Assembly: GCF_027923905.1 (NCBI RefSeq) | Contig: NZ_AP026966.1 | Span: 1,613,001 to 1,677,000 of the forward strand | From: Massilia varians | GTDB taxonomy: Bacteria > Pseudomonadota > Gammaproteobacteria > Burkholderiales > Burkholderiaceae_D | Direction: 5' to 3' | DNA length: 64,000 bases | In this document: positions 18,061 through 54,470 of the stretch, in pieces | Layout of the letters: each line of letters opens with the position of its first letter | Position numbering within the stretch: position 1 is the first letter of the stretch | Notes under the pieces: generated by a model | What the model was told of the DNA's origin: nothing | Databases searched by the model: none | The model's input: only the letters and a program-made list of their open reading frames with translations | Program-made: the position numbers and the translations under genes

Positions 18061-18735
18061 TTAGCGCTGGATGACGCCGCTGGTGACGTTCACGCGGTCG
18101 CCGCTGCGGAAATCGGGCGTGCTGGCATGGCTGACAACCTGGGTGCTGCCGTCGTCCATGCGCACCGTGACGCGGTAGCTGTTGGCGCCGCTGGCCCCGG
18201 CTGCGCCGCTCGATCCGGTGCTGCCGGCCGTGCCCGAGCTGCCCGCGCTCATGCTCTCGCTCGGGACGACCTCGATGGCGAGCACCGTGCTGTTGGGGGC
18301 AGCGCTGCCGGCGGTCGAGGTGCCGGTCGCTGCCGACAAGCCGGACGAGCCGGTGCTGCCCGATGCGCCGCTGCTGCCGGACTGGTCCCAGCCCGAGGAG
18401 CCGCTGCTGCCCGAGGTGCCCGAGGTGCCAGAGCTGCCAGAGCTGCCCGAGGTGCCGGTGCCGGTGCCCATGGTGCCCTGGCTGCTCGAGCTGCCGCTGC
18501 TGCCGGTGGGGTTGCCGGAGGCGTCGGTGGCGCTGCCGGAGCCGTAGCTGCTGGAGCCGCCGGTGCCGGTCGCACCGGAGGTGCCGCTCGAGCCGCCCGA
18601 GGTCGTGCCGCTGCTGCTGGTGCCGCTCGTGCCACTGGATGCGTCGCCGCCGCCGCGCATGCCGGCGCACCCGGTCAGGCCCAGCGATACAGCCAGCAAG
18701 CCCGCCAGGAGCATGCTCTGGTGTTTTTGCTTCAT
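18061..18735 (-). CDS. Gly/Ser/Thr-rich lipoprotein
   Basis: A 224-residue protein with a lipoprotein signal peptide; the lipobox LTGC places the acylated cysteine at C23. Residues about 25-145 are low-complexity Gly/Ser/Thr with repeated SGSSG, SGTSG and TGTGTS units. A folded C-terminal segment of about 60 residues contains TVRMDDGSTQVVSH and FRSGDRVNV, a pattern seen in outer-membrane lipoproteins of the SlyB/PcP-like type where it forms a small beta-barrel. AAGGAG precedes the ATG at 18735. It is probably an envelope-anchored protein on a flexible linker; function unknown. Confidence 0.7.
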   Translation of the reverse strand: MKQKHQSMLLAGLLAVSLGLTGCAGMRGGGDASSGTSGTSSSGTTSGGSSGTSGATGTGGSSSYGSGSATDASGNPTGSSGSSSSQGTMGTGTGTSGSSGSSGTSGTSGSSGSSGWDQSGSSGASGSTGSSGLSAATGTSTAGSAAPNSTVLAIEVVPSESMSAGSSGTAGSTGSSGAAGASGANSYRVTVRMDDGSTQVVSHASTPDFRSGDRVNVTSGVIQR

Positions 18736-22260: not shown

Positions 22261-23123
22261 CACCAGTCTCCCGAGGCGCCGCCGCCGTCGAAGCTGCCCC
22301 CGCCGCCGGAGAATCCGCCGCCGCCGAATCCGCCGCCACCGCCACCGCCACCGAAACCGCCGCCGCGTCCCATGCCGCTCATGATGTTGCCGAGAATGAT
22401 GCCGGTCGCGACATCGCCCAGGCCGCTGCTACGACGGCCCCAGTGGTGCGGCGAGAGCCGGCTGCGGCGCGGACGGAAGATCGAACGCAGCACGAAAAAG
22501 CCGATCAGGAGAGGGATGATGCCGAACAGCGAAAACCCGCCGCCGGTGTCGACCTGCACTTGACGCTGCGGGACTTGCTGCTGTGCCGGGGCAGGGAAGC
22601 TTTCCTTGTTCAGCAGCGTGGCGATGGCGCCGACGCCGGCCACCAAGCCCTCGTAGTAATGGTTCTGGCGGAAGTGTGGGGCGATCACGTCTTGCAGGAT
22701 GCGTTTTGACTGCGCATCCGTCAGCACGCCCTGCACGCCGCGCCCGGCCTCGATGCGCAGCCGACGCAGCGAACTCGGATTATCACGCGCCACCATCAGG
22801 AGCACGCCGTCGTCGATGCCCTTGCGGCCCAGTTTCCAGGCGTCGGTGACGCGGATGCTGAACTGCTCGATCGCCTCCGGCTCAGTCGATTTGACCAGCA
22901 GCACCGCGATCTGGCTCCCGGTGCGCGCCTCGTAGTCGGCCAGCACCGCGCTCAAGCGCTCGCGCTGGGCGGCGTCGAGCATGCCGGCTTCGTCGACCAC
23001 GCGCCCGGTCAGCGCGGGCACCGGCTTGAGCTGGGCGAACGCCGGCGTGGCCAGGCCCGCTGCCAGCATGCAGGCCAGCAGCAGGACCCTCAGGTTACGC
23101 AGGAAGCTGCATCCAATTCGCAT
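22260..23123 (-). CDS. Exported TPM-domain protein of the YgcG family
   Basis: A 287-residue protein with a signal peptide ending near ATPAFA (residue 31), a TPM domain (about 35-180) with GRVVDEAGMLDAAQRERL and RIEAGRGVQGVLTD, one transmembrane helix (about 200-218, SLFGIIPLLIGFFVL) and a Gly/Ser-rich tail (about 250-287). This is the standard layout of YgcG-type proteins, possibly membrane-repair or photosystem-maintenance-like factors. It is 3 bases from the lemA stop and overlaps the next TPM gene. Confidence 0.85.
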   Translation of the reverse strand: MRIGCSFLRNLRVLLLACMLAAGLATPAFAQLKPVPALTGRVVDEAGMLDAAQRERLSAVLADYEARTGSQIAVLLVKSTEPEAIEQFSIRVTDAWKLGRKGIDDGVLLMVARDNPSSLRRLRIEAGRGVQGVLTDAQSKRILQDVIAPHFRQNHYYEGLVAGVGAIATLLNKESFPAPAQQQVPQRQVQVDTGGGFSLFGIIPLLIGFFVLRSIFRPRRSRLSPHHWGRRSSGLGDVATGIILGNIMSGMGRGGGFGGGGGGGGFGGGGFSGGGGSFDGGGASGDW

Positions 23124-29675: not shown

Positions 29676-30899
29676 TCAGGGCGCGGGCAAGGGAAGGATC
29701 TCGACCCGGTAGCACATGTCGCCCGGCTGGAACGCGATCTCCCAGCCCATGCTGCGGGCGGCCCGTTGCAAGAGATTCTGCCCGTGCGCGAAGCCCTGCA
29801 CCCGGCCGGCGTGCGCCGCGTCCACGGTATTGGCGATGAACAGCCGCCCGTTCTCATGAGCGATGGCGAGCCGGGTATGCGGCCCGCCATGGAACAAGGC
29901 ATTGCCCAGGCAATTGGTGACGAGCAGGTGGGCGAGGTGCTGGTTGCCCTGTACCTGCAGCCGTTCCGGAAGCGTGAGCGCCAGCCGCTCCTCGTCCCAG
30001 GCCTGCGCGCCCGGCAGGCGCAGCAGCGCCGCCTCGATGCAGGCACGCAGGTCGAAGTTCTCCAGCCCGACGTGTTCGGCCCGCGCCAACGCGAACAGGA
30101 CCTCGGTGGTGGCGCGCAGTTCGTCGACGCCGGCCTGCAACTGCCCGAGCTCGTGCAGGCCCAGCGGACGCGTGCTGGCGAGCGCCAGGGTGTTGTTCAT
30201 GACGGTGAGCGGGGTGCGCAGTTCGTGCCCGACGTCGCGCGTGAAATCGCGCTCGCGGCGCAGGGCCGCCTGCAGCGCGCTGAACCCGGTTTCCAGGCGC
30301 TCCGCGAGGATGCCGATCTCGTCCGGCCGTCCGCGCGCGCTGAAGCTGGCCGTGCCGCCGGGACGCAGGGCCTGGGCTTCGTGCGCCAGGAGCCGCAGCG
30401 GCCGGACCAGGCGCCGCGCCAGCAGCCAGGCCAGCAGCAGGGCCAGCCCGATCAGTGCCATGGCAACAAAGATCAGCACCCCGCCCACGTCCTGCACCAC
30501 CTTCGACACCACCAGCACGGGAGCGACGTCGGCCAGCAGGTACATGCGCCGTGTGCCCGCGCCATCGGGCAGTTCGCGCACCATCAGGTGATAGTGCTGG
30601 CCGGTCCGGGTAAACACCTCGGCGCGCAGGTCGCCGGGCGCGGCGGCTAGCCGCACCACGGCCGGCAGCGTGTCGCGGCTGGTGTGAACGGTGACCAGGT
30701 CGCTGGCGGGGCGGGGCGGGCCGCCGCCGCGGGCGGCCTGCGCTTCGATGGCGGCCGCTTCGCGCTCCAGCAAGCGCTCCACCAGCACGTCTTCGGTGAC
30801 GTAGGCGATCACCACCGCCAGGCCCGTATAGCACAGGCAGATCAGGATGGTGAAGCCGGCCAGGGCGGCGAACAGGCTGCGGCGGATCGACCCGGGCAT
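29676..30899 (-). CDS. Sensor histidine kinase with a degenerate ATP-binding region
   Basis: A 407-residue membrane kinase: TM1 about 8-32, a short periplasmic sensor of about 110 residues, TM2 about 145-165, HAMP (about 165-220) and HisKA with HELRTPLTV. The N-box NCLGNALFHGG is recognisable, but G1 (normally DxGxG) is replaced by ANTVDAAHAG and the G2 GLGL is AHGQNLL, so the ATP-binding site is altered. The gene is third in an MFS-regulator-kinase operon, five bases after the regulator stop. It probably pairs with that regulator, but with unusual kinase chemistry or as a phosphatase. Confidence 0.8.
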   Translation of the reverse strand: MPGSIRRSLFAALAGFTILICLCYTGLAVVIAYVTEDVLVERLLEREAAAIEAQAARGGGPPRPASDLVTVHTSRDTLPAVVRLAAAPGDLRAEVFTRTGQHYHLMVRELPDGAGTRRMYLLADVAPVLVVSKVVQDVGGVLIFVAMALIGLALLLAWLLARRLVRPLRLLAHEAQALRPGGTASFSARGRPDEIGILAERLETGFSALQAALRRERDFTRDVGHELRTPLTVMNNTLALASTRPLGLHELGQLQAGVDELRATTEVLFALARAEHVGLENFDLRACIEAALLRLPGAQAWDEERLALTLPERLQVQGNQHLAHLLVTNCLGNALFHGGPHTRLAIAHENGRLFIANTVDAAHAGRVQGFAHGQNLLQRAARSMGWEIAFQPGDMCYRVEILPLPAP

Positions 30900-30903
30900 G
30901 GTC

Positions 30904-31593
30904 CTAGTCCTCCAGGTCGAGCCGGTAGCCCAGCTGCAGGATGGTGGCAAGCATCCTGCGCCCGCACGCCCCTTCCAGCGTCTTGCGCAAGGTGTAGATG
31001 TGCGACTTGAGCGCATCGCTGTCGGGGGGATTGGCGCCCCACAGGTGCTGGACCAGGGCCGAGCGCGACACCGGATGCGGATGCTCCCTGCACAGCAGCT
31101 GCAGGATGCTGAAGCCGGCCTGGGTCAGGACCAGGGGCCGGTCCTCGTAGAACGCGCGCTTTTCCCGCGCCAGCAGGGTCAAGGGGCCGACCCGCATCTC
31201 CTGCTGCCGGTGCAGCGTCCCGCGGCGCGCCAGCGCCTCGCAGCGCAGGGCCACCTCGCGCAGGTCGAAGGGCTTGGCCAGGTAGTCGTCGGCGCCTTCG
31301 CGAAAGCCCTGGGCCTTGTCCTCGAAGGCGTCGCGCGCGGTCAGCATCAGCACCGGCACGTTGCTCGGCGCCTGCGCCTTGATCGCGCGGCAGACCTGCA
31401 GGCCGTCCATGTCGGGCAGGTTGAGGTCGAGCAGCACCACGTCGTAAGAATGCTGGGTGGCCAGCCGCACGGCCAGGCTGCCGGTTGCGGCATGGTCAAG
31501 CTGCCAGCCCAGGCCGTCGAGGAAATCGACCAGCTGGCGGGCGATGGTCGGGTGGTCTTCGACCACCAGCACACTGAGCGCCTCGCGCTTCAT
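30904..31593 (-). CDS. OmpR-family response regulator
   Basis: A 229-residue regulator: receiver domain (about 5-120) with phosphoacceptor D56 in LLDLNLPDMDG and the conserved Lys in LAKPFDLRE, then a winged-helix OmpR/PhoB output domain (about 130-228) ending ILQLGYRLDLE. It overlaps the MFS gene by four bases and precedes the kinase by ten bases between start and stop, so the three are co-transcribed. It likely controls its own operon; targets are unknown. Confidence 0.9.
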   Translation of the reverse strand: MKREALSVLVVEDHPTIARQLVDFLDGLGWQLDHAATGSLAVRLATQHSYDVVLLDLNLPDMDGLQVCRAIKAQAPSNVPVLMLTARDAFEDKAQGFREGADDYLAKPFDLREVALRCEALARRGTLHRQQEMRVGPLTLLAREKRAFYEDRPLVLTQAGFSILQLLCREHPHPVSRSALVQHLWGANPPDSDALKSHIYTLRKTLEGACGRRMLATILQLGYRLDLED

Positions 31594-32849
31594 GCGCGCA
31601 TCCTTTCGCCGTTGTCGTCCTTGTGGTGGGGGAAGCGGTCCATCCGCGACAGCACCGGGAACAGCCACGCCCACAGGCCGGCGACGGCAAGCGTGGCGGC
31701 GCCGCCCAGCAGGATGGCGCGCACCAGGCCCAGCCAGCCGGCGGTGACGCCCGATTCGAATTCGCCCAGCTCGTTGGAGGCGCCGATGAACACCGAGTTG
31801 ACGGCGCTGACGCGTCCGCGGATGTCGTCCGGCGTTTCGTACTGCACCAGGAGGTGGCGGATGTAGACGCTGACCATGTCGCCGGCGCCGAGGAGGAACA
31901 GGGCGCCCAGGGCGACCGGGAAGCTGCGGGTCCAGCCCATCAGCAGGGTGGAGAGGCCGAACACGGCGACGCCGCCGAACATCCACAGGCCGACGCGGCG
32001 CGTAATCGGGAAGAAGGCCAGCGCGATCGAGCACAGGGCCGCCCCCAGGCCTGGCGCGCTGCGCAGCCAGCCCAGTTCGGACGGGCCCACCTGCAGCACG
32101 TCGTGCGCATAGGCGGGCAGCAGGGCGGTGGCGCCGCCGAACAGCACCGCGAACAGGTCGAGCGAGATCGCGCCCAGCACGATCGGACGCGACCACACGA
32201 AGCGCAGGCCCTCCATCAGCGAATGCCAGCTGACCGGTCCCTGGCTGCGCGCCTGCCGGGCCGCACGGGTGCGCGACATGCACAGCACCGCGATGCTCAA
32301 GAGGCTGGCCGCCACCATGTGCACGGTCATCGGGCCGAAGACGTACAGCAGGCCGCCGACGATCGGGCCGGCGATCACGGCCACGTGGAAGGTCGAGGAA
32401 CTCAGGGCCACGGCCTGGCTGAAGTCGCGATCCGGCACCAGGTTCTTCAGCACCGCCTGCGAGGCCGGCATCATGAAGGCGCGCGCGGAGCCGAACAGCA
32501 CCAGGATCGCGAACACCGGCCACACGATGCTGCTGGCGCTTGCCGTGAAGCCCACCAGGAGCAGGCTGCACAGCAGTTGCGTGGCCATGCACAGCAGGAC
32601 GATGTTGCGGCGGTTGTAGCGGTCGGCCACGTGCCCGGCCCACAGGATCAGCACTAGGAAGGGCGCGAACTGCGCCAGCCCGATCAGGCCGAGGTCGAAC
32701 AGGCTCTTGGTGATCTGGTAGACCTGCCAGCCGATGGCGACGCTCTGCATCTGCACCGCCAGGGTGCCGAGGAAGCGGCTGGACAGGTAGAAGGCGAGGT
32801 TGGGGTTGCGCAGGACGGCCAGGCCGCTGGACGGGGACAGCAGGGACAT
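31590..32849 (-). CDS. MFS transporter, EntS/TetV-like
   Basis: A 419-residue transporter of about 12 transmembrane helices in the MFS_3 group (enterobactin exporter EntS and relatives). GHVADRYNRRNIVLL is the conserved loop 2-3 motif. A start at TTG 32867 would add six residues, but ATG 32849 gives the standard N-terminus. The gene heads the operon with the response regulator and kinase, so its expression may be tied to the signal they sense. Substrate unknown. Confidence 0.82.
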   Translation of the reverse strand: MSLLSPSSGLAVLRNPNLAFYLSSRFLGTLAVQMQSVAIGWQVYQITKSLFDLGLIGLAQFAPFLVLILWAGHVADRYNRRNIVLLCMATQLLCSLLLVGFTASASSIVWPVFAILVLFGSARAFMMPASQAVLKNLVPDRDFSQAVALSSSTFHVAVIAGPIVGGLLYVFGPMTVHMVAASLLSIAVLCMSRTRAARQARSQGPVSWHSLMEGLRFVWSRPIVLGAISLDLFAVLFGGATALLPAYAHDVLQVGPSELGWLRSAPGLGAALCSIALAFFPITRRVGLWMFGGVAVFGLSTLLMGWTRSFPVALGALFLLGAGDMVSVYIRHLLVQYETPDDIRGRVSAVNSVFIGASNELGEFESGVTAGWLGLVRAILLGGAATLAVAGLWAWLFPVLSRMDRFPHHKDDNGERMRA

Positions 32850-32919
32850 GAAGGGCTTTCGGGACAATGCTTGGGCTCGTTAACCCTGCATTGTGCCCGA
32901 ATTGCCGCCTTGCGGTTCC

Positions 32920-35796: not shown

Positions 35797-36435
35797 TCAG
35801 GCCGCGTGTGCCAGCTTCTTGCCCGATGCGCCGCAACGTTCAGCGGTCTCCGGCTGTGCATGGGATGGCTTTCCCGGCGCGGCGCAGAAAGCGGTCGCAG
35901 CGCTGGGGGCTTCGCGCGGCTTGCCAGGCGCGGCGCAGAATGCCATCGCAGCGCTGGCGGCTTGGCGCGGCTTGCCAGGCGCGGCGCAGAATGCCATCGC
36001 AGCGTTGGCAGCTTGGCGTGGCTTGCCTGGCCCGGCGCAGAATGCGGTCGCGGCATGGGGGACAGGTCCGGTACCGAATTCTGCTTCGTAAATCTCACGC
36101 ATGCGTTCGCCTGCCTGCTCGTGTTCGCCTTCATCGGCGGTGCCAATACCGACGTAGGGATAGTGGTGCAGGAAGTAGCCGAACAAGGCTGCGCAGTCGC
36201 GCGCATACTTCATCGTGTCGAGGATGTGGTAGTGCCAGAAGATGTCCACGTCGACGGTCGGCGATGCCTCCGCGTCAGGGTATTTCTTCATCAGGAACAG
36301 GAAGCGGCGGTATTCCGTTTCCACTGCATCGGTCCGCAACGCGGACCAGCCTTCGCCGGATTCCACATGCATCAGTTTCATTTTGATCGGGGCAAGATCA
36401 AGCGTTTCAAATGCTGCGAATTCGTTGGTCGACAT
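35797..36435 (-). CDS. GRDP-like protein with five C-terminal 17-residue cysteine repeats
   Basis: A 212-residue protein. Residues 1-125 resemble the N-terminal domain of glycine-rich-domain (DUF1399/GRDP-like) proteins: VDIFWHYHILDTMKYARDC and FGYFLHHYPYVGI. Residues 129-212 are tandem 17-residue units of consensus A-x-AFCAAPGKPRxAxSA with a cysteine in each, at 133, 150, 167, 184 and 201; the fifth unit is degenerate. AAGGTG lies eight bases before ATG 36435. No maturation enzyme, exporter or immunity gene is recognised nearby. The arrangement resembles a leader plus multi-core peptide precursor, but it could also be a metal-binding or structural tail. The function is unknown. Confidence 0.75.
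   Translation of the reverse strand: MSTNEFAAFETLDLAPIKMKLMHVESGEGWSALRTDAVETEYRRFLFLMKKYPDAEASPTVDVDIFWHYHILDTMKYARDCAALFGYFLHHYPYVGIGTADEGEHEQAGERMREIYEAEFGTGPVPHAATAFCAGPGKPRQAANAAMAFCAAPGKPRQAASAAMAFCAAPGKPREAPSAATAFCAAPGKPSHAQPETAERCGASGKKLAHAA
35800..36051 (-). repeat. Five tandem 51-base coding repeats
   Basis: Units of exactly 51 bases, visible on the plus strand as recurring GCGCAGAA starts at 35882, 35933, 35984 and 36035, followed by a fifth degenerate unit at the 3' end of the gene. They encode the cysteine repeats of the GRDP-like protein. Two central units are nearly identical at the DNA level, indicating recent duplication. Confidence 0.85.
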
Positions 36436-36681
36436 AGTTATCACCTTTTGTTGTAGATCTGTTTGTCAAGGCATTCTTTTTTATCCCTAGTGTTGAAGCG
36501 GTACGTCAGAGAATCCTCCTCGAAGAACATGGCGCAATTAATCGGAAGTCAGGAACTGCGTGTTGAGCGGTGGCAGTGGTGACAATTGTCCTGCGACCCG
36601 TCAGGCTTAATGTTGAGTTCTGTCAACCGATAAACTGCTGTGCTGAAACGAGACAGCCTGGCCGCAACACTCGGCCAATGT

Positions 36682-38544
36682 TCATGCGATGGCCGGCAGC
36701 ACGGCATCGCTGTCGTATTTTGGGGTAGCGGGCGTTTCGGATGGATACCCGGTCACGGGAATGGTAACAACGATGGTGGTGCCGGTATCCGGGCCGCTGC
36801 TGATCGAGAAGCTGCCGCCCAGGATGTTGACGCGCTCCTCGATGCCCACCAACCCAAAGGAACCGTTGCGGTTGCGGCTGCCCGGCTGCATGCCGATGCC
36901 GTTGTCGCGGATCGTCATGGTCAACATGTCGGCATGCTGGTGCAGGTCGATCCGTACCCTGGTCGCGCGCGCGTGCCGGGCCACGTTGTTGAGCGACTCC
37001 TGCAGAATGCGAAAGAAGGCGGTGGCGCATTGGTCGTCGAGGTGGTGTTCGGTTTCGTCCTCGACCAGTTCGCATTCGATCCCGGTACGGCGCGCGAAAT
37101 CAGTCACCTGCCAGTCCACCGCCGCGTTCAGGCCGAGGTCGAGCACATTCGGCCGTAGGTCGTTGATGATCTGGCGCACACTGCGGATGGTGAGGTCAAT
37201 CTGGCGTACGGTCGCGTTGGCGCGTTCGTACAGGCGGCCATGGCGGTCGCGCGTGCGGTTGGCGAGGATCTCGGCCTCGATCTTCAGCGCCAGCAGATTC
37301 TGCCCGAGTTCGTCGTGGATTTCGCGCGCGATGCGCTTGCGCTCGCCCTCCTTGATCTGCTCCGCGTGCGCGGCCAGTTGGCGCAGCTTTTCATTAGTGG
37401 CCTGCAGTTTGGCCTGGCTGGCGCGCAGTTCCCGGGTCATGTCCTCGGCCATGCGCAACGCGCTGCGACGCGAGGAAGCCATCGTCTGGAACAGCGCGAA
37501 GAGCAGCGCGGTGCTGAGCGCACCGGCGAGGGCTGCCAGCCAGGGATAGTAGAAGTCGAAGCGGGTGTACAGTGCGGACCTTGCGATGCTGAAATCGGCG
37601 CGCCACACCCGGTGGTTGAAGTGGATCGGCAGGTCGGCGTGCAGCATGTTGCCCTTGTCTGTGATGGCCGGCGGGAGCGGCTGCGCTGCCGTCGCATGGC
37701 TGTCATAAAGGATTGCGCTGTGCTGAGGCTCACCCGGCTCGAGCGGTACCTCGTTCAGGTCGGTGAGTATCAGGCGCACCCCGTCGGCCGGGAATCCCTC
37801 GAGCACCCCGTTGACCATGCGGTTGACGCCGAAACCGATGCCGACAGAGCCGAGGTAAGCGGCGCGGCGTCTGGCGACGGTGTCGACCGGCATGTCGTTG
37901 CGGTACACCGGCAAGCGCATCGCGAGTACGTTCTGGATGGGACCGGGCAGTATCTTGACGCGGAAGCCCGAGGCGGTCATGGTATTGTTGTCGCGCGACT
38001 CTGCCACTGTGTGGCGGATGTAGCTGCGCGCCTCCAGGTCGAGGCCGAGTGTGCCGAGGGTTTGCGGAGTAGCGGGTTCCATGTAGACAATGACCGTGTA
38101 GCTGTCGCGGCCGGGCACGGGACGCAGTGGCGTCGCAGGCTCGGGCATGCCGTACTGCCGCAGACGGCGACGTACGTCGGCCTCGATCGCCGGCAGTCCA
38201 GTCGGGCCGACGGTACGCGCATAATTCATGGCCTCGATGCCAGGAAAGTTGCGGGGCGTGTCGAGCTGCTCGACGTAGTAGCGAAATTCGTCGGCGCTAG
38301 CATTCGGTTTGGCATGGAACAGCCCGGCCATGCCGCGCAGCACGTCGGTATAGCTTTTGATACGGGCCTCGATCGCAAACTGGGCGGTGCGTGCCATGGC
38401 GCGAAAGCGCGTCTGGGCATCGGTTTCGATTGCCTTGGCGGTCGCCAGGTAGAGAGCAGCGCCGACCGTTACGGACAGCACGGCCCCTGTCAGCACCGCC
38501 GTCGGCATGACGACATGATGAGTGGAGTGGCTGCGGTGAGACAT
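36682..38544 (-). CDS. CHASE-domain sensor histidine kinase (NarL/HisKA_3 type)
   Basis: A 620-residue membrane kinase: an N-terminal transmembrane helix (about 12-35), an extracytoplasmic CHASE domain (about 75-290) with FPGIEAMNYARTV, a second helix near residues 330-350, a coiled-coil (about 355-400), HisKA_3 with EIHDELGQNLLALK and a HATPase with RDNGIGM. CHASE domains bind small extracellular ligands. NarL-type kinases usually pair with a LuxR/NarL regulator, but no regulator gene is adjacent. The intergenic region upstream is short and shows no recognisable promoter. Confidence 0.87.
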   Translation of the reverse strand: MSHRSHSTHHVVMPTAVLTGAVLSVTVGAALYLATAKAIETDAQTRFRAMARTAQFAIEARIKSYTDVLRGMAGLFHAKPNASADEFRYYVEQLDTPRNFPGIEAMNYARTVGPTGLPAIEADVRRRLRQYGMPEPATPLRPVPGRDSYTVIVYMEPATPQTLGTLGLDLEARSYIRHTVAESRDNNTMTASGFRVKILPGPIQNVLAMRLPVYRNDMPVDTVARRRAAYLGSVGIGFGVNRMVNGVLEGFPADGVRLILTDLNEVPLEPGEPQHSAILYDSHATAAQPLPPAITDKGNMLHADLPIHFNHRVWRADFSIARSALYTRFDFYYPWLAALAGALSTALLFALFQTMASSRRSALRMAEDMTRELRASQAKLQATNEKLRQLAAHAEQIKEGERKRIAREIHDELGQNLLALKIEAEILANRTRDRHGRLYERANATVRQIDLTIRSVRQIINDLRPNVLDLGLNAAVDWQVTDFARRTGIECELVEDETEHHLDDQCATAFFRILQESLNNVARHARATRVRIDLHQHADMLTMTIRDNGIGMQPGSRNRNGSFGLVGIEERVNILGGSFSISSGPDTGTTIVVTIPVTGYPSETPATPKYDSDAVLPAIA

Positions 38545-53513: not shown

Positions 53514-54470
53514 TCAATCGCGCAGGTCGGCCGGCACCTTGCCGCCGTTGGCCGCCAGCTTGTTCATGACCTGGCGGTGCAACCAGATGTTCATCGAGGC
53601 CGAATCGCTGGTGTCGCCGGTGTAGTGCAGCTCGGCGGCCAGTTCCTTGCGCGCCTGCAGGCTGCTGTCCAGGCCAAGCAGCTTGAGCAGGTCGACGATC
53701 GAGCTGCGCCAGTTCAGCTGCTGGCCCGAGGACTTCTGCATATTGGTCAGGATTGCCTCGACGTCGACCTGCTCCATCATGGCCGGCGCGGCCTGGGGCT
53801 GGACCTGTGGCTGGGCTTGCGGCTGGGCCTGGGGAGCAGCCTGCGGCTGGGCCTGTGGCGCCGGCGCCTGGGGCTGTGCCTGCGGGCCCTTGTTGGCGGC
53901 GTGCGCCTTCGGGAAGATCTTGCCGAAAATATTGCTCAGGATGCCCATGTCATCTCCTTGGTGAATGGTGGATTGGGAACGCATGCGTTGTGCTACGTGG
54001 CCAAGCGCGAGCGCCAGTGCGGCGCCGCCGATCGCCTTGACCAGGGTCGGGTGTTCGGCATAGAAGGCGCTCATGCGGTCGACGATGCCGGGATTTTGCT
54101 GCTCTGCCTGCTCGGCCAGCTCGCGCACCTGCTCGGGGGAGACCTGCGACGCCTGTTCCGGCGTGACCTTGCCGGCGCCGAACAACTTGCCGAACACGCC
54201 GCCTGCCACCGAGGACAGCTGTGCCGGGTTCAGGGAACCCAGCAGCTGGTTCAGCATGCCGGCGCGGCCGTTCGCATCGCTTTGCCCGAACAGCTGGCTG
54301 ACCACTTGCGGGAAGGGCGGGGTCTGGTCGGAACGCAAGGCATTGGCGACACCTTCGGCGACCGTGGTGCGCGGCGCGCTCTGGGTCACGCGGTCGAAGT
54401 CGTCCGCCGCGCGGTCCTGGTTGCCGCCGCCAAGGTATTGCGATAACAGATTGCCCAAATCAAATGCCAT
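53514..54470 (-). CDS. Fused protein: duplicated small domain plus DUF3597-like domain
   Basis: A 318-residue in-frame fusion. Residues 1-166 closely match the 179-residue neighbour encoded at 54564-55103 (MAFDLGNLL at the start; KAIGGAALALALGHVAQ at the end), where that protein stops. Residues 175-318 begin MGILSNIFGKIF and resemble stand-alone DUF3597 proteins; a Gln/Pro/Ala-rich linker (about 195-225) separates the parts. A strong AGGAG and ATG survive at the junction (53948), so the DUF3597 part, 144 residues, may also be made alone. The original stop codon seems to have been lost by mutation. No function is known for either part. Confidence 0.8.
   Translation of the reverse strand: MAFDLGNLLSQYLGGGNQDRAADDFDRVTQSAPRTTVAEGVANALRSDQTPPFPQVVSQLFGQSDANGRAGMLNQLLGSLNPAQLSSVAGGVFGKLFGAGKVTPEQASQVSPEQVRELAEQAEQQNPGIVDRMSAFYAEHPTLVKAIGGAALALALGHVAQRMRSQSTIHQGDDMGILSNIFGKIFPKAHAANKGPQAQPQAPAPQAQPQAAPQAQPQAQPQVQPQAAPAMMEQVDVEAILTNMQKSSGQQLNWRSSIVDLLKLLGLDSSLQARKELAAELHYTGDTSDSASMNIWLHRQVMNKLAANGGKVPADLRD
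53946..53959 (-). promoter_or_regulatory. Internal ribosome binding site and start for the DUF3597 part
   Basis: On the minus strand AGGAG (53954-53958) lies five bases before an in-frame ATG (53946-53948) that begins MGILSNIFGKIF. It probably marks the former separate gene. Confidence 0.65.

Follow-up and report, generated by a model that had tools for sequence, protein, structure and literature searches.

What could be the function of a gene that joins a GRDP-like domain to a tail of short, regularly spaced cysteine motifs? Such a gene lies on the minus strand of the window, by which we mean the whole stretch of 64,000 nucleotides of Massilia varians DNA analysed here. From sequence comparisons we propose, with a probability of about 0.55, that this repeat gene encodes the precursor of a multi-copy peptide signal, whose core is here about AFCAAPGKP, and that the adjacent CHASE kinase would be its receptor.

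The repeat gene and its tail units

The repeat protein is composed of the following parts.

35797..36435, minus strand: repeat protein of 212 aa, GRDP-like N-domain and repeat tail; relatives in 51 named-genome loci
36061..36435, minus strand: conserved N-terminal GRDP-like domain, residues 1-125 (Pfam, AlphaFold2 model)
35998..36048, minus strand: repeat unit 1, TAFCAGPGKPRQAANAA
35947..35997, minus strand: repeat unit 2, MAFCAAPGKPRQAASAA
35896..35946, minus strand: repeat unit 3, MAFCAAPGKPREAPSAA
35845..35895, minus strand: repeat unit 4, TAFCAAPGKPSHAQPET
35797..35844, minus strand: degenerate fifth unit, AERCGASGKKLAHAA and the stop, without an aromatic core

The open reading frame is real and lies on the minus strand, spanning 35797-36444 with a GTG start or beginning at the ATG at 36435. 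Its cysteines are at residues 81, 133, 150, 167, 184 and 201, the last five of which lie in the tail at a spacing of exactly 17 residues. The sequence-only reading of this DNA had described five cysteine units with a shared core; the spacing was borne out, but the core is present in four units only (TAFCAGPGKP, MAFCAAPGKP, MAFCAAPGKP and TAFCAAPGKP; consensus AFCA(A/G)PGKP). The fifth unit, AERCGASGKK, keeps the cysteine, lacks the aromatic residue and has a DNA identity of 38–48% to the other units. Likewise, the statement that neighbouring units are almost identical in DNA holds for units 1 to 3 (86% between units 1 and 2, 96% between 2 and 3, 82% between 1 and 3) and fails for unit 4, which shares 61–65% with them. 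TRF reported a 51-bp array of 3.5 copies with 90% matches, and none of 2000 shuffled tails contained four near-identical 5-mers at 17-residue spacing. TRF also reported other low-complexity tandem repeats in the window, at 18347-18545, 22279-22364 and 53785-53885.

The assignment of the N-terminal domain to the GRDP/DUF1399-like group was upheld, as the window protein passed the PF07173 cut-off (27.7 bits vs 22.7), although the match covers only profile positions 99-143 of 143, the last third. Two relatives were scanned with the same model; one scored 21.4 bits, just below the cut-off (L028), and the other gave no match at E<=0.001 (L126). Searches of PHROGs and NCBIfam gave no match. An alignment of 33 N-domains has 44 invariant columns, which take in most of the FWHYHILDT block as well as several His, Asp and Cys residues that could bind a metal. 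The AlphaFold2 model of the domain is all-helical with a pLDDT of 85.5, and it had no match at E<=0.001 in a fold search against the PDB, nor did a sequence search of the PDB give one at E<=1. Because a confident model is without a match among solved structures, the N-domain is possibly an unrecognised domain, and it may perhaps serve as a carrier, protease, export or catalytic domain.

Core codons are conserved and linkers vary

In relatives, the tail is hypervariable between species and uniform within a gene, and the N-domain is conserved. The general core pattern is (A/T)-(F/W/Y/H)-(C/S)-x-x in 2 (L027) to 24 (L064) copies, so that the repeat number does vary among homologues, as the sequence-only reading had proposed to check. 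Examples of the cores are AFCASPGKP, AYCSSPNKP, AWCTSPGKP, TAYCAGPWDK, KTAYSGRVAAEA, TAWSASPRK, KTAFCWVEG and TAFSTRVAADAK, among others. At the codons of the aromatic residue, the Cys/Ser and position -1, unit pairs differed nonsynonymously in.02–.05 and synonymously in.25–.49 of comparisons (712 units, 81 genes), whereas at linker positions -4 to -2 the nonsynonymous difference was.41–.63 in the same units. The units were located by the +1 to +3 triplet, so these positions are fixed by construction, decayed units are under-sampled and intact cores are favoured in these figures. Homologues thus generally share the layout of a folded domain with a multi-copy short core behind it, with core codons conserved against free linkers.

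These data also bear on whether the tail is a functionless, neutral tandem-repeat expansion. Such an expansion would fit the differences in copy number between species and the partly near-identical 51-bp units of the window, but it would not be expected to conserve core codons against free linkers, to keep a single aromatic-Cys/Ser dipeptide type in 70 of the 81 genes that have at least three cores, or to retain at least three such dipeptides in 64 of the 66 repeat proteins of the 51 named loci. The two exceptions were a copy interrupted by N stretches (L025) and the protein with two copies (L027). We therefore consider a neutral origin very improbable.

In a large branch, serine replaces the core cysteine (YSGRV, FSTRV, WSGAA). 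The cysteine is thus not essential, which argues against a simple metal-binding tail, one of the two functions that had been suggested for this protein from its sequence. Many of the Ser-type relatives (L028, L032, L038 and L050 among them) carry after the repeats a conserved terminal FY(S/T)xRPxL-like motif that resembles a core; it could be a processing signal, an export signal or an ancestral core.

A CHASE histidine kinase lies directly upstream

The earlier account of the neighbourhood omitted the gene directly upstream, which encodes a CHASE kinase. The relevant features are as follows.

36682..38544, minus strand: partner sensor histidine kinase, 620 aa (Pfam domains), directly upstream of the repeat gene
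37753..38301, minus strand: CHASE sensor domain, residues 82-264; the variable part, which tracks core class in related loci
36751..37344, minus strand: HisKA_3 and HATPase_c kinase core, residues 401-598; homogenised among the tandem copies that related genomes carry
36436..36681, minus strand: intergenic region from kinase to repeat gene, probable promoter; conserved columns in 18 loci
36586..36626, minus strand: conserved element TTGAnnnAnCnCAACAnT....CTGA.....CGCAnGAnAA; matched once in the own genome with 3 mismatches allowed

The kinase contains CHASE (1.5e-29), HisKA_3 and HATPase_c domains, and its sensor is flanked by a hydrophobic stretch on either side, at about residues 11-39 and 333-356. 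A receptor histidine kinase beside the signal gene is characteristic of two-component peptide pheromone systems, and here the kinase was directly upstream of the repeat gene in the window and in 51 of 51 named-genome loci, which had been chosen by the repeat gene. At E<=1e-60 it was found in all 61 genomes of the genus and in none of 40 others. Among 15 divergent loci, the repeat gene was head-to-head with a kinase in 10, the BLAST match covering the kinase part, and all four of these head-to-head kinases that were scanned had CHASE, PAS_3, HisKA_3 and HATPase_c domains; the neighbours other than the kinase differed between groups of divergent loci. The remaining five comprised a repeat gene with no kinase within 7.5 kb (L133), a kinase with a tail-less partner (L136), an apparently broken locus (L137), and two distant relatives with neither repeats nor kinase (L138, L139). 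In 11 of the 51 named loci, a single kinase precedes two repeat genes whose cores differ. This arrangement breaks a strict one-receptor-one-ligand logic, and because of it some receptors may read two cores.

The gap between the kinase and the first repeat gene was 102–376 bp (median 291, 70 pairs). In 18 loci of the window's clade it contained conserved blocks, among them a TTGA...TCAA element. When the own genome was searched for the long element as a mark of other genes, with 3 mismatches allowed, the only match was the one described here. The intergenic conservation would be compatible with feedback on the repeat gene.

Distribution of the family

The family is carried by soil bacteria akin to Massilia, and the 51 repeat-gene loci of the named-genome scan came mostly from records titled Massilia, Duganella, Rugamonas, Pseudoduganella and Janthinobacterium. 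When 101 relatives were scanned, the repeat gene was present in 60 of the 61 genomes of the window's genus. In the single exception (G016) a contig end truncates the kinase, and the repeat gene is probably missing only because the assembly stops there. Among the 40 non-genus genomes, from other families of the same order, only weaker matches were found, in five. Those five genomes encode a GRDP-like protein with a Ser/Gly/Cys-rich tail and, as judged by eye, a hydrophobic N-terminal stretch (L089-L093), perhaps the more general form that the GRDP-like family takes in bacteria; one of them also has a soluble form (L088). That soluble protein (L088:2664-3203), a distant GRDP-like protein, ends in two copies of PCVHDCTPA, and the next gene has a GGDEF motif (by eye). 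In a same-family sample, 95 of 245 genomes, from 13 of 44 genera, matched at E<=0.001 with weak matches counted, and in a class sample the Pfam model matched 4 of 274 genomes, the own genome counted. One contig with a kinase and repeat genes of the betaproteobacterial family stands in a record titled Streptosporangiaceae MAG (L037) and is probably misbinned.

Maturation enzymes, export and other neighbouring genes

Repeated short cores behind a folded domain also raise the possibility of a RiPP-like, multi-core natural product, whose cores would undergo modification and be set free as a bioactive peptide, with the kinase either regulating production or sensing the product. The folded N-domain with repeated cores and freely varying linkers fits this explanation, and so does a key position that takes both Cys and Ser, since both are substrate residues of several modifying enzymes. 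Moreover, distant GRDP-like proteins also have Cys-rich tails, and one pair of them lies beside a TauD-family gene. Classical RiPP precursors, however, have a conserved modifying enzyme nearby or co-occurring, and none was seen among the conserved neighbours of the named and divergent loci (clusters inspected by eye, eight window genes by Pfam). MNIO, YcaO and SPASM matches were found in 44, 57 and 20 of the 61 genus genomes, respectively, a distribution that does not match that of the repeat gene (60/61), and we rejected all three as dedicated maturases. The sequence-only interpretation as a RiPP precursor or metal-binding tail was not sustained, given these distributions, the lack of a conserved enzyme nearby and the replacement of Cys by Ser. 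In view of this evidence on both sides, we regard a modified natural product, possibly with an autocatalytic N-domain in place of a separate enzyme, as unlikely.

An MNIO-modified bufferin-type peptide was rejected as well, as 17 of the 61 genomes had no MNIO match at all; one genome without MNIO (G042) nevertheless has an AWCAAPGK tail of 24 copies (L064). The MNIO (PF05114) gene of the own genome (G000:C1:1704426-1705208) is about 55 kb from the repeat gene, outside the window. In several relatives, too, an MNIO gene and the repeat gene are tens of kilobases apart; with 17 of 61 genomes lacking a match, the MNIO gene appears to be unrelated. In one genome scored 100% complete (G005) the repeat gene is present and YcaO is absent, and the YcaO proteins of the genus appear to be of a standalone type. 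A search for a SPASM gene in the own genome gave none.

In two genus genomes there is a second GRDP-like protein with a C-terminal NCWHDCVGRCWHAC (L086:2744-3229 and L087:2806-3291). A TauD-family dioxygenase ORF overlaps or abuts both genes (PF02668, 1.3e-11, in L087, which was scanned) and is a candidate modifying enzyme for that tail.

Three further genes of the window were considered.

31590-32867, minus strand: MFS transporter gene; counterpart in 36/51 named loci and 1/12 divergent loci
29676-31016, minus strand: HAMP-HisKA kinase; counterpart in 5/51 named loci and 0/12 divergent loci
30904-31593, minus strand: OmpR-type regulator, paired with the HAMP-HisKA kinase; counterpart in 5/51 named loci and 0/12 divergent loci

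Flanks were at most 6 kb, and neighbour counts in the 51 loci are therefore lower bounds. The remark that no maturase or exporter lay nearby stood for the maturase and had to be qualified for the exporter because of the MFS gene. Shared synteny is the simplest reading of that gene, and an export role may be possible. The HAMP-HisKA/OmpR pair is a separate two-component system about 5 kb from the repeat gene and, occurring in 5 of 51 loci, was set aside as a part of the system. No response regulator was found among the conserved neighbours of the 51 named or 12 divergent loci, no protease was seen to be conserved beside the repeat gene, and the window repeat protein had neither a signal peptide nor a hydrophobic segment.

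Tandem arrays combine a uniform kinase with divergent sensors and tails

Alternating kinase-repeat units, at least two per genome, occur in nine genomes (L024, L025, L030, L098, L099, L100, L102, L103 and L104; L097, L101 and L105 were dropped as duplicates of L024, L030 and L025, respectively). Kinases shorter than 590 aa were excluded from the pair alignment, which left 70 pairs. In 13 within-genome kinase pairs, the kinase region was 91–100% identical and the CHASE region 51–64%. Sliding windows showed a sharp change in identity near residue 333-341 in three of four pairs examined and a milder one in the fourth. In 12 within-genome pairs the N-domain of the repeat protein was 84–100% identical. 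This comparison was made without L025, which was also omitted from the third-codon and tree-class analyses because of N stretches within its array.

At third codon positions, the mean identity of 12 within-genome pairs was.54 for CHASE,.92 for the kinase and.84 for the N-domain, compared with.67,.82 and.81 for 34 same-class pairs from different genomes. N-domain third-codon identity was.91–1.0 in six of the 12 array pairs and.70–.75 in the other six, all of which include a YCAGPW unit. Units with different cores thus share a homogenised kinase in general and, in half of the pairs, a homogenised N-domain, whereas their CHASE and tail are not homogenised, and we infer from this gene conversion of the middle.

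Core class follows the CHASE sensor

The hexamer divides the array cores into four classes, YCAGPW, YCA(S/G)PR, WCAGP(W/H/R) and FCA(S/G)P(R/H), of which the split of the Y class was noticed first on the CHASE matrix and afterwards found in the hexamer. One array genome (L102) has one YCAGPW among 16 YCASPR, and the three-unit array of L104 combines YCAGPW, WCAGPR and FCAGPH cores. For 18 kinases from eight genomes, the four classes required three changes on the CHASE tree, which is the minimum and was reached by none of 1000 within-genome shuffles. On the kinase tree the same 18 kinases required nine changes, a number reached by 296 of 1000 within-genome shuffles. For aromatic type, which was counted in 65 of the 70 kinases because five had mixed aromatic labels, there were 11 changes on the CHASE tree vs 19 on the kinase tree.

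In 39 single-pair loci, aromatic-type changes numbered 7 on the CHASE tree, 9 on the kinase tree, 10 on that of GlnS and 11 on that of the N-domain; the CHASE advantage in this sample is small and weaker than in arrays. Within the window's clade (16 loci), same-aromatic pairs had the higher CHASE identity after correction for kinase and GlnS identity (13 of 5000 label permutations, with phylogeny ignored). The linked polymorphism of signal and sensor against a conserved kinase that marks pheromone systems was thus found in the array genomes and was weaker in single-pair loci.

From these comparisons, the CHASE sensor of the kinase and the core of the tail appear to be two ends of one specificity, and a receptor-ligand relation would be the simplest mechanism for their match. 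Old co-inherited pairs could likewise produce the pattern seen in the arrays, but would not on their own account for the homogenised middle. They form part of another explanation, in which the repeat protein is an intracellular effector or scaffold under kinase control, CHASE senses an unrelated molecule, and the correlation arises only from old co-inherited paralogous pairs. Sensor domains of kinases generally diverge fast, which would agree with this explanation, as would the lack of a visible export signal, the separate upstream region with its conserved element and the weakness of the CHASE-core association in single-pair loci. On the other hand, the kinase domain, which lies between CHASE and tail, is homogenised across units whose cores differ, and yet the core class remains in phase with CHASE, and the extreme variability of the tail together with its uniformity within a gene suggests recognition rather than a bulk function. 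An effector or scaffold is, in our estimate, improbable.

A model of peptide signalling and its relation to known systems

If the repeat gene encodes a peptide-signal precursor, the tail would be cut into, or presented as, short peptides that would reach the periplasmic face, where each receptor would respond best to its own core class. The signal would then pass by phosphorelay through a response regulator encoded elsewhere, which might feed back on the promoter of the repeat gene itself. The N-domain would be a common handling module for carriage, processing or export. More tentatively, and with somewhat less than even chances, the system could represent a new class of Gram-negative cell-cell signalling. 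In this class a ribosomal precursor would carry up to two dozen near-identical aromatic-Cys/Ser cores on a GRDP-like handling domain, and a co-diversifying CHASE kinase would read them. Some species would have tandem arrays forming two or three private channels, with output kinases that gene conversion keeps near-identical, while ligand and sensor diverge in step.

The precursor of yeast alpha-factor contains several identical short peptides with linkers between them and is in this respect similar to the repeat protein; here, in contrast, a secretion signal is lacking, no processing protease is known, and the partner is a two-component kinase. In the ComX-ComP pair of Bacillus (ComQXPA), the signal gene adjoins that of a receptor histidine kinase, and the portion of the source available to us describes the ComX C terminus, which encodes the active peptide, and the ComP N-terminal domain as highly variable, so that both the peptide end and the sensor are polymorphic (PMC4008528). 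The present system differs by its many core copies, large GRDP-like domain, CHASE sensor and occurrence in Gram-negative Oxalobacteraceae; no ComQ-like gene was seen and no response regulator is adjacent. Vfm quorum sensing of Dickeya is Gram-negative and likewise shows linked polymorphism, between signal-production genes and the gene of a putative co-sensor transporter, according to the part of the report consulted (PMC9306890). As described there, Vfm is a 26-gene cluster with NRPS-type biosynthesis (PMC9306890), whereas the present system consists of two genes with a ribosomal repeat. Judged by analogy, the repeat-kinase system resembles ComX-ComP and Vfm in its polymorphism and is a member of neither.

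The plant protein AtGRDP2 also combines an N-terminal DUF1399, termed a domain of unknown function in the sections of the plant paper at hand, with a low-complexity C-terminus (PMC4299439). Its tail is glycine-rich with a putative RNA-binding motif, and the same sections mention neither aromatic-Cys/Ser cores nor a kinase partner (PMC4299439). In the literature we found no account of the present system, of a function for bacterial DUF1399, or of peptide quorum sensing together with CHASE kinases in this group.

Significance

Ribosomal peptide signalling in betaproteobacteria is, to our knowledge, little known. If the proposal is correct, it would provide a function for one bacterial branch of the GRDP-like (DUF1399) proteins, an endogenous candidate for the peptide ligand of bacterial CHASE kinases and, in betaproteobacteria, a set of parallel signal-receptor pairs that nature has replicated. 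The tandem arrays would then be a natural experiment in which the output is nearly identical and the input different, and each CHASE domain is predicted to prefer its own core of 6–9 residues.
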